Shown here one piece after another: positions 25,664 through 40,052 of a stretch of 64,000 bases of DNA. The stretch spans positions 105,609-169,608 of IMG/VR virus record IMGVR_UViG_3300043788_000023. One strand, given 5' to 3'. Origin of the DNA: a virus. Below the pieces are notes generated by a model, which was not told the origin of the DNA, did no database searches, and worked only from the letters and a program-made list of their open reading frames with translations. Each line of letters starts with the position of its first letter. Positions within the stretch are counted from its first letter, which is position 1. The position numbers were made by a program, and so were the translations under genes.

Positions 25664-25692
25664 ACTATAATACCGAAAGTTGGGAAAGTCAA
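25664..25692 (-). promoter_or_regulatory. strong sigma70-like promoter for csp
   Basis: -35 TTGACT (25687-25692), 17-base spacer, -10 TATAGT (25664-25669). The -35 box overlaps the stop codon region of the alanyl-tRNA synthetase-like gene. Confidence 0.82.
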
Positions 25693-26590
25693 GCCTTGAT
25701 TAGCGGTAGTTCCTCGGGCATGATCCCGAAGGTGTCCCACCAGAACTCGGGCTGTTTGTCCCCGTTGTTCCGAAAATAGCGTCGGCCTTCACGCAGGGAC
25801 TTCTCCATGCGACCACGTTCCCCATCCATCCAGCCCATAAACGAACATTCCACGCCCTGCGGGTTGAGACGCATGAATCGCCGGATCAGGCGACGGCAGA
25901 CGTAGTTCCTGCCCCTGTTGCCCGGCACGATGTCCTGCTCGCGGAACACGCACAGGGTGCGGAAATGGTCGCGGGACACCGGGTCTAGGTCCTGCCGGAA
26001 GAGGCTCGTCTCGTCCACGCGGCTTTTGCCTTCCACGATCTGAAGCATGCGCTCGTAGCCGAAGCCCACGTCCACGGAGTGCCCCATCGGGTTCACGAGA
26101 TTGCCTACTTCAAGCCCCTCCGGCGTGAACAGTTCCGAGCAGTAGCCGCCCACGGTGCCGTCCGACCAGACGCAATCCGGGTCGTGGCACACGGGGAAGA
26201 CTCCGTTCCAGTGCCGCTCAAAGCCGGACTCCGGGTGGATGTTTACGTGGGAGATCGGGATGCCGAGGTCGCGGACGATGCCCGTCCACATGTCGCAGTG
26301 CCGCTGGTAGTCGTCCGTGCCGAAGCCGAAGCTACCGACCATCTGGAAGAAGGTCAGGTGCGTGCCGTCGCCGACCTCGTCGATGTCATTGGTGCGGACG
26401 CAGTGCTGGATGTTGCCGTGGCTGGTGCCGTCCGGTGTCTGGAACCTTGGCTTGAGTGGCTGCATCCCCGCGCTGATGAAAAGCGTGGTGGGGTCGTTCT
26501 CGGGGATTATGTTGGTGCTTGGTTCAAAGGGGAGACCGTTCTCGCTGAAGTGGCGTCGAAGGGTCTCGTTTAGGCGTCCCGCTGTGACAT
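25689..26590 (-). CDS. alanyl-tRNA synthetase catalytic core with a frame break near the start
   Basis: The in-frame ATG at 26465 starts inside motif 1, yet homology continues upstream in the same frame ([20 protein letters not shown], then [20 protein letters not shown]). No ATG, GTG or TTG exists there; an ATG at 26590 with a GGAGG box is one frame off, and a -1 shift at GCC-TAA would join it. Class II AlaRS signatures: [18 protein letters not shown] (motif 2), [20 protein letters not shown], and [13 protein letters not shown] (motif 3). About 300 aa; the editing and C-Ala domains are absent. It could charge tRNA-Ala or the phage tmRNA. The break may be programmed, a sequencing error, or decay. 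Confidence 0.75.
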
Positions 26591-32784: not shown

Positions 32785-32889
32785 TGGAGCGCCTGGGGGG
32801 ATTTGAACCCCCGACCAACGGATTATTTCTCCGCTGCTCTTGCGAGGTCGGTTTTAGAGACCGCCGCTCTACCACTGAGCTACAGGCGC
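32785..32889 (-). tRNA. amber suppressor tRNA (CUA) with large branched variable region
   Basis: Acceptor GCGCCTG/CAGGCGC, T73, CCA encoded. Anticodon arm holds CTCTAAA, anticodon CTA (reads UAG). About 30 extra bases lie between the anticodon and T arms, closed by CGACC/GGTCG and containing CTC-GCAA-GAG and CGGA...TCCG hairpins. Confidence 0.7.
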
Positions 32890-32894
32890 AAACT

Positions 32895-32969
32895 TGGCAC
32901 CCCCGGTGGGATTTTTACCCACATGCGCGGCTTTAGAGGCCACTGCTCTTGCTGTTGAGCTACGGGAGT
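32895..32969 (-). tRNA. amber suppressor tRNA (CUA)
   Basis: Acceptor ACTCCCG/CGGGGGT (one G-T), G73, CCA encoded. Anticodon stem GTGGC/GCCGC, loop CTCTAAA, anticodon CTA. T-loop is TAAAAAT, lacking the usual TTC. The weak 1-72 pair and G73 would suit glutaminylation. Confidence 0.72.
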
Positions 32970-33095: not shown

Positions 33096-33174
33096 TGGTG
33101 GGGTCGGCGGGATTTGAACCCGGCGATCAGGGTTTTAGAGACCCCTGCTTTGGGCCAGACTAAGCTACGACCCC
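33096..33174 (-). tRNA. amber suppressor tRNA (CUA)
   Basis: Acceptor GGGGTCG/CGACCCC, A73, CCA encoded. D-arm GCTT...AAGC with an enlarged loop; anticodon stem GGGGT/ACCCT, loop CTCTAAA, anticodon CTA; regular T-arm with TTCAAAT. Confidence 0.8.
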
Positions 33175-35438: not shown

Positions 35439-35727
35439 GTCACCACGGCTCAGGGGATTTTCCGGCGCTCATCCTCAGCATTGTTCCCGACGCCAAGGTT
35501 TGCCTATTCTTCTTTCGGCGCAATCGCACCGCTGTCCCCGAGTTGAAGAACGTCCAAGCAGCGGGGGTCAATTCCCCCTTCAAGACAAGCGCAGGTGAGT
35601 TTTACGTCACCTCTCCCCGCAAGCCCTGTCACACTTGGCAAAGTCTAGTCTCCCGTAGGTTTACTTTCGGAACCGATGACGTCTGCTGCCCACGGACACT
35701 GGAGCCTTCTGTATGATACCACCAGAA
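35439..35727. other. no convincing gene
   Basis: Short frames occur on both strands, including a plus-strand one of 97 codons and a minus-strand TTG-start frame of 45 codons that ends in TAG and stays open 18 codons beyond it, but none has protein-like features I can defend. Confidence 0.4.
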
Positions 35728-35756
35728 ACAAAAAAGCCCAGCCGAAGCTGGGCGAA
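35728..35756 (-). terminator. terminator of the tmRNA gene
   Basis: GCCCAGC-TTCG-GCTGGGC followed by TTTTTTG on the minus strand. Confidence 0.92.
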
Positions 35757-36044
35757 TTTTGTGGTGTTGAGGATCAGAGACACCGTCTCTGGGCACGCAG
35801 GTTTTTAAGCTGCGGCTGCCATTGCCATTGCCTTTGGAGCAGTGACGTTTAGTTGTTTCCATCCTGATTTTCGAGGGTATGGTACCTCGGGTCGCTAGCT
35901 CCGTCCTCGCACGTCTTCCGTCGAAACCGATTACCCCCGCAGTGGTGGAGGTAGAGGGAATTGAACCCTCGTCCGAAAAGACTGTCTGGTGCCTTTTACC
36001 CCCACACTTACCCTTCGGCAGTCTACAGGGGCTTACGACCATCT
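35757..36044 (-). ncRNA. ssrA: circularly permuted (two-piece) tmRNA
   Basis: Transcript order is acceptor piece, then coding piece. The acceptor piece ends T-arm GAGGG-TTCAATT-CCCTC, TACCTCC, A, CCA (CCA at 35943-35945). Only four bases later the coding piece starts GGGGGTA at 35938, which pairs with TACCTCC, including G3-U70, the alanine signature; TCGGTTTCGACGG follows, a tmRNA hallmark. GGAAGAC pairs with GTCTTTT as P2a across the two pieces. The tag reading frame ends GCA-ATG-GCA-ATG-GCA-GCC-GCA-GCT-TAA (…APKAMAMAAAA), with AACCTGC after it as in E. coli. The exact resume codon is uncertain. Rescues stalled ribosomes. Confidence 0.88.
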
Positions 36045-36050
36045 AACCTA

Positions 36051-36079
36051 AGAATACCGTAGTTCTGGTACTTTGTCAA
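36051..36079 (-). promoter_or_regulatory. consensus promoter for the tmRNA
   Basis: -35 TTGACA (36074-36079), 17-base spacer, -10 TATTCT (36051-36056). Predicted start near 36044. Confidence 0.88.
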
Positions 36080-39383: not shown

Positions 39384-40052
39384 TTAGAAGCTCAACACCC
39401 ACGAAAAGATGATGTCCACGCCAGCCGGGAGGATGAGCGGTGGGAGGGTCTTGTAGTTCACAAGCACAACGCTGTCCGCCGGACCCGGAGGTGTTGCAGC
39501 CGGGTTAAAATACGGGGCGTTCGTCATGTTCGTCGGTTGTCCGCCAGCGCCTACGAGTGTACCACCGCCGATCAATCCCATCTCACGAATGCTTTGGGTG
39601 ATGTTGTCGGTCGTGGCGTTCACCGTGGTCTGGAAGTCTACCATCGTGCTGAACTGGTTCACCGGGTTGAAGTTCACGTCCACGTAGTTGATGCGGGAAA
39701 GCGGCTTGCGCAGGAACTCGGAAATGAGCGCAGTCTGAACCGGGGAGGGGTCGGGCTGTGTCTCAGGTGCCCAGGAAGGGCTGCCAGCGCCTATTGCAAG
39801 GCCCCAGACGCCGTACAGCGGGTCTGCTGACACGCCAGCCTCGCCGAGGGTGTAGGGGACGGCTGGGGCGTTCGGGAGGGCGTTTGCCATGAGGCGTGCG
39901 AATAGCCACCGTACGACGTTCACGATGATGTTGTGACCCGTCCAAAGCACCTCGCCATTGTCTGCCCGCATGACGCGGATGTTGATTTTGGCAGGGTACT
40001 GCTGGCGATCCAGCATGTCCGAACCAAGCTCTATTTTCCTGAATTCATTCAT
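39384..40052 (-). CDS. putative tail/baseplate structural protein
   Basis: 222 aa, beta-rich with NIRVMRADNGEVLWTGHNII, INYVDVNFNPVNQFSTMVDF and a strand-rich end (LPAGVDIIFSWVLSF). Similar to small tail sheath-terminator or tail-fibre connector proteins in gene position (just before the long tail genes). Precise role unknown. Confidence 0.65.
   Translation of the reverse strand: MNEFRKIELGSDMLDRQQYPAKINIRVMRADNGEVLWTGHNIIVNVVRWLFARLMANALPNAPAVPYTLGEAGVSADPLYGVWGLAIGAGSPSWAPETQPDPSPVQTALISEFLRKPLSRINYVDVNFNPVNQFSTMVDFQTTVNATTDNITQSIREMGLIGGGTLVGAGGQPTNMTNAPYFNPAATPPGPADSVVLVNYKTLPPLILPAGVDIIFSWVLSF

Follow-up and report, generated by a model that had tools for sequence, protein, structure and literature searches.

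The window analysed here is a stretch of 64,000 nucleotides, positions 105609-169608 of an IMG/VR virus record 169.6 kb long, and its phage-type genes include those for a baseplate wedge subunit, a helicase, and a nicotinamide phosphoribosyltransferase. On the minus strand at 35714-36036, ARAGORN identifies a permuted tmRNA (tmRNA*) encoding the tag VTAPKAMAMAAAA; tmRNA releases stalled ribosomes and marks their incomplete products with such a tag. The Rfam model RF04321 (tmRNA_permuted), whose gathering score is 47 bits, matches 35805-36003 of the same strand over the full model (1-213) with 70.6 bits and an E-value of 1.5e-11. The standard tmRNA model, RF00023, fits the gene solely as two halves, and because these halves match in swapped order the permutation is directly evidenced. 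A sequence-only reading of this DNA had proposed a phage-encoded circularly permuted tmRNA and had named ARAGORN and Rfam as the check; both identify a permuted tmRNA, on the minus strand, and at the level of sequence the proposal was right.

All elements of the gene lie on the minus strand. As delimited by ARAGORN and Rfam, the acceptor piece (35943..36036, 5' end approximate) precedes the coding piece (35775..35938, 3' end approximate), and the two are separated by a 4-nt spacer, CUGC (35939..35942), which would be removed from the precursor. The acceptor piece comprises a leader, a T-arm (35970-35954), the acceptor 3' strand UACCUCC (35953-35947), and a discriminator A followed by an encoded CCA (35946-35943). 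The coding piece extends from G1 to a hairpin past the tag, read from the sequence as CAGAGAC-GGU-GUCUCUG (35791-35775). It opens with the acceptor 5' strand GGGGGUA (35932..35938), which pairs with 35953-35947 to form all 7 base pairs of the acceptor stem, including G3 at 35936 with U70 at 35949. The piece order, the 4-base spacer, and the 7-bp stem with G3-U70 had each been anticipated, and ARAGORN, the swapped RF00023 halves, and the pairing bear them out. A probable pseudoknot, PK1 (35859..35889), was read by eye and is also visible in a related locus, L089; here CGAGG (35889-35885) pairs with CCUCG (35876-35872), and the loop CCAU (35882-35879) with AUGG (35862-35859). The tag frame with its stop codon occupies 35805..35846, and its resume codon, GUC (35846-35844), is preceded by an A at position -4 (35850), as placed by ARAGORN and tag alignment.

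The gene is flanked by putative transcription signals of its own, as had been claimed from the sequence. Upstream, a consensus scan found a σ70-type promoter-like site, TTGACA-17-TATTCT (36051..36079, minus strand, 10 of 12 bases), of which one copy was present against 0.2 expected in shuffles, and most relatives have a TAT-type -10-like element at the equivalent position. Downstream lies an intrinsic terminator (35730..35753, minus strand) with the stem GCCCAGC-UUCG-GCUGGGC (35753-35736) and a subsequent T-run; it falls just beyond position 35757, where the earlier reading had begun the feature. A terminator-like hairpin follows the tmRNA in most relatives as well. A candidate promoter motif shared across the phage, TTTCTGGTATCATA, was rejected, its four matches in the window not differing significantly from the 1.85 expected.

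A blastn search revealed no similarity of the window to DNA of known phages, and relatives were therefore sought by protein. The marker was the product of a gene at 39384-40052, which lies roughly 3.3 kb upstream of the tmRNA; in phage Tunturi_5 the homologue of this product bears the annotation of a virion structural protein. From IMG/VR this search recovered 21 loci, some of which lie on contigs 332 to 463 kb long. At 14 of the 21, ARAGORN placed a permuted tmRNA on the same strand as the marker gene and downstream of it; when duplicates and locus L142 are set aside, 10 of these are distinct. With Rfam, 10 of 13 related records contain a permuted tmRNA, nine of them over the cut-off. The tmRNA of L142 scored 43.4 bits, under the cut-off, yet it keeps all acceptor pairs and has the same tag as locus L126. 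Three related phage contigs, G003, G004, and G005 (loci L127, L129, and L130), have no detectable permuted tmRNA; absence or loss is likely in the L129/L130 branch because those contigs cover 10 kb on either side of the marker gene. Tunturi_5 carries a permuted tmRNA at 157899-158195 (86.4 bits, Rfam), in the gap between gp218 and gp219, where the GenBank record has no annotation; the main text of the Tunturi_5 paper does not mention a tmRNA. L089, recovered independently by pattern, is collinear with the window, and among matches to the pattern AAAAGGCACCAGACAG it alone is a real relative, the other four being chance. Within the family of the window phage the spacer varies from 4 to 81 nt, and most of the tmRNAs of the lineage share their position relative to the virion-type gene. 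The two-piece tmRNA is thus shown to belong stably to a jumbo-phage lineage and not to be a stray gene.

Base pairing was compared across 12 phage genes, counting that of the window; over the T-stem and acceptor columns these comprise 10 distinct sequences. All 12 pairs of these two stems form in all 12 genes, two-sided changes are seen in 10 of the 12 pairs, and none of 500 shuffles equalled the observed pairing or covariation. Acceptor-stem covariation in relatives, which had been set as a test beforehand, is present, and together with the Rfam E-value it rules out a chance match. In these genes G.U occupies the third acceptor pair without exception, whereas of the remaining six pairs in that stem five vary; an invariant G3.U70 amid varying acceptor pairs is the pattern expected under selection for alanine charging. 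The third pair is likewise G.U in all 115 permuted tmRNAs tabulated from viruses and bacteria (among the viral matches listed), a result that is supportive only, because the programs that selected the genes presuppose a tmRNA. A hairpin close to where the acceptor piece begins also covaries, in seven sequences chosen because the hairpin is visible in them. P2 is the weakest element. The sequence-only reading had placed it between the two pieces, and a few of its pairs do appear in the consensus fold, but most are invariant and the alignment supports only part of the helix.

The window tag has 13 codons, begins with Val at the GUC resume codon, ends in AAAA, and contains no acidic residue. With resume codons set by ARAGORN and tag alignment, an A lies four bases ahead of the resume codon in all 12 genes of the phage lineage; its E. 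coli equivalent, A86, is the base that chiefly sets the frame (PMC2481249). A tag core, AP[KRL]x[MLF]A, is common to 11 of the 12 genes, and differences within it are mostly silent (pS 0.45 and pN 0.11 over six codons, the pairs compared not being independent). Acidic residues are absent from 10 of the 12 tags; Val (GUC) is the first residue in three of them, and the last residues are AAAA or AHA in 11. The tag of Tunturi_5, AKNSPVV...AFAMAA, differs, being basic, 34 residues long, and ending in AMAA. The end of the window tag lacks a degradation signal of the LAA/VAA type, which is typical of the RF04321 family though not needed for membership, and its relatives end in AAAA, AHA, or MAA. Among the matches listed, 49 of 56 distinct tags of other viral permuted tmRNAs contain an acidic residue and none begins with Val, and all 20 distinct tags from the sampled bacterial permuted tmRNAs hold an acidic residue. 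The tag class of this phage lineage is unusual and new. The window tag had been called unusual for its Met and Ala content, and unusual it is, for other reasons: the lack of acidic residues, the Val start, and the lack of an LAA/VAA end. Tags that are both basic and long, at 24 to 34 residues, occur in the viral permuted tmRNAs L024, L092, L101, L107, L118, and Tunturi_5 (PP885688.1), and several of these carry a stretch like KVLAFP, KVIAFP, or KVLSFA.

The host of Tunturi_5 is Tunturiibacter psychrotolerans (Acidobacteriota, class Terriglobia). Among 299 sampled Terriglobia genomes the permuted model gave a single match and no genuine permuted tmRNA; the same search found one in 68 of 76 alphaproteobacterial genomes, fewer candidates per genome having been scored in the Terriglobia run. 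The single match (L250, G115:C13:201907-202671) is the junction of two standard tmRNA genes in tandem, which mimics a permuted gene, and it illustrates how tandem duplication could yield one. One-piece tmRNAs are present in Granulicella sp. dw_53, with the tag AEPTLALAA, and in Acidicapsa dinghuensis, with the tag ANNNLALAA. With none in 299 genomes, the RNA of Tunturi_5 probably mismatches the form of its host's, and such a mismatch in gene form is strongly indicated by the sampled genomes of the host class; for the window phage it is only suggested. SmpB was found neither in the window record nor in the 13 related records, several of which are fragments, and the phage tmRNA would consequently depend on a host SmpB that accepts a foreign tmRNA.

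Phage tmRNAs, two-piece ones included, are already established (PMC9004378, PMC11915505, PMC7162821), and two-piece forms made up 53 of 133 unique phage tmRNA structures in 2022 (PMC9004378). Our IMG/VR pattern scan, confined to spacers of up to 32 nt, returned at least 119 stretches, and at about 100 or more of these loci ARAGORN reads a tmRNA, which is permuted in nearly every case. A permuted phage tmRNA is not, then, the rarity it had been taken for, nor is its 4-base spacer exceptional: viral spacers range from 4 to 32 nt among the matches listed, at least six being exactly 4 nt. The window gene resembles the RF04321 genes of Alphaproteobacteria, some Betaproteobacteria, and Cyanobacteria in piece order, 7-bp stem, G3.U70, T-arm, CCA, and the A at -4, whereas its tag, beginning with Val and ending in AAAA, lacks their ANDN or ANDE start and acidic residues. 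Its bit score lies below those of all 68 alphaproteobacterial permuted matches. A tmRNA tree of 105 rows and 160 columns, built by a short search and with many open forks, groups the phage family with a single additional viral gene, L092, and places it outside both the sampled alphaproteobacterial genes, which form a separate clade, and one betaproteobacterial row. Two-piece tmRNAs of the methylophage Melnitz and other marine phages provide a precedent for a permuted tmRNA in a myovirus, as here, and the tmRNA type of Melnitz is also out of keeping with its host lineage (PMC9004378). The differences are that no glutamine riboswitch in the window scored up to the Rfam cut-off and that the window phage belongs to a soil lineage, is kin to an acidobacterial phage, and has its own tag class. 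Huge phages (PMC7162821) are, as here, large phages with a tmRNA and tRNAs, but they are reported to have tmRNAs together with SmpB, whereas SmpB was not found in the window lineage.

We conclude that the window gene is very probably a functional phage-encoded two-piece tmRNA that uses host SmpB. Structure, covariation, synteny, and tag conservation are observed directly; from there we infer transcription, processing, charging, use of host SmpB, tagging, and benefit. A single short transcript would run from the gene's own promoter to its own terminator, host RNase P would cleave the coding piece free ahead of its G1, and trimming would remove the short tail that follows CCA at the 3' end. By analogy with known two-piece tmRNAs, the acceptor and coding pieces would stay joined through the acceptor stem and P2. 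An alanyl-tRNA synthetase (AlaRS) would charge the RNA via G3.U70, an identity element present in the gene, and the charged tmRNA with host SmpB would enter ribosomes stalled on broken mRNA. The ribosome would resume at GUC and append VTAPKAMAMAAAA, the frame of which is conserved. The most likely benefit would be that ribosomes are kept available during infection, while many mRNAs degrade.

The window also contains a truncated AlaRS-like gene of uncertain start (25689..26588, minus strand). Its product matches PF01411 with 60.3 bits (cut-off 30.3), has a class II catalytic core like that of AlaRS, and matches AlaRS chains in the PDB, with the regions of motifs 1-3 recognisable. The protein is only about 299 aa long, its profile matches stop near position 313 of 552, and it scores far under the NCBIfam cut-offs for full-length AlaRS. 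An AlphaFold model built without relatives is poor (pLDDT 36). A six-codon frame, MSQRDA plus stop, which opens with a conserved Shine-Dalgarno sequence and ATG in the window phage and in its relative G001, overlaps the AlaRS start in both; because of this overlap the start is uncertain and may reflect a -1 frameshift, a non-AUG start, or a leader peptide. Three tRNAs with CUA anticodons, of the amber suppressor type, lie on the minus strand at 32788-32889, 32895-32969, and 33096-33174; one has a long variable arm, and CUA tRNAs lie near the tmRNA in several relatives. As an idea only, host TAG readthrough by these tRNAs might make ribosome rescue more necessary. General recoding of TAG was rejected, TAG being a rare stop (3 of 44 plausible genes) with no clear recoding.

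Charging might be run by the phage itself, the truncated AlaRS acting on the phage tmRNA and rendering the host enzyme dispensable in that branch. We consider this unlikely. By ARAGORN the window record has no tRNA-Ala, and G3.U70 is absent from all the tRNAs read in it, while the protein has recognisable regions of motifs 1-3; moreover, the mini-AlaRS of Tupanvirus, which like the window gene is virus-encoded and lacks the editing and C-Ala domains, charges G3:U70 acceptor stems (PMC10036535). The predicted protein of about 299 aa is, however, shorter than the 461 aa of Tupanvirus AlaRS and uncertain in its start, and host tRNA-Ala is equally possible as its substrate. The two genes are also dissociated in their distribution: the AlaRS-like gene occurs only in the window phage (G000), G001 (G001:C1:193958-194908), and L089, the tmRNA is present without it in Tunturi_5 and on two contigs longer than 450 kb, and a 635-kb phage has a similar AlaRS without a permuted tmRNA. 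Because most tmRNA-bearing relatives lack the AlaRS gene, a fixed AlaRS-tmRNA partnership is unsupported.

The unusual tag invites another reading, that the RNA, charged and bound by SmpB, acts mainly as an interfering RNA that competes with or replaces host tmRNA, nascent proteins then receiving a tag which, ending in AAAA or AHA and not in LAA/VAA, host ClpXP would degrade poorly. The tag class does differ from those of the sampled bacteria and of most other viral permuted tmRNAs among the matches listed, and the host class has a one-piece tmRNA with tags ending in ALAA; but mere competition needs no conserved, translated frame, ClpXP may still read AAAA ends, and the AMAA end of the Tunturi_5 tag is ordinary and degradation-like, which makes this account rather improbable. 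For a broader version, in which a host-foreign rescue RNA takes over trans-translation and frees ribosomes with a tag (AAAA or AHA end, hardly any acidic residues) that host ClpXP does not recognise as its own, and is charged in one branch by a phage minimal AlaRS, we see a slim chance. That the gene is a decayed relic or a passenger from a bacterium, out of use, might be argued from its bit score, below those of bacterial permuted tmRNAs, and from the relatives that have no tmRNA. Such disuse is highly improbable in view of the compensatory changes in 10 of 12 pairs, the invariant G3.U70, the in-frame tag with mostly silent changes, and the position conserved across the lineage.

As a probable two-piece rescue RNA served by host SmpB, the window gene adds to the known phage tmRNAs a lineage position, a likely host difference, a new tag class, and an overlooked gene in Tunturi_5. 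Tunturi_5 growing on Tunturiibacter is a cultured pair in which the tmRNAs of phage and host very likely differ in both form and tag, and it therefore makes testable the long-standing question of why phages carry a tmRNA and whether the phage tag is intended for degradation.
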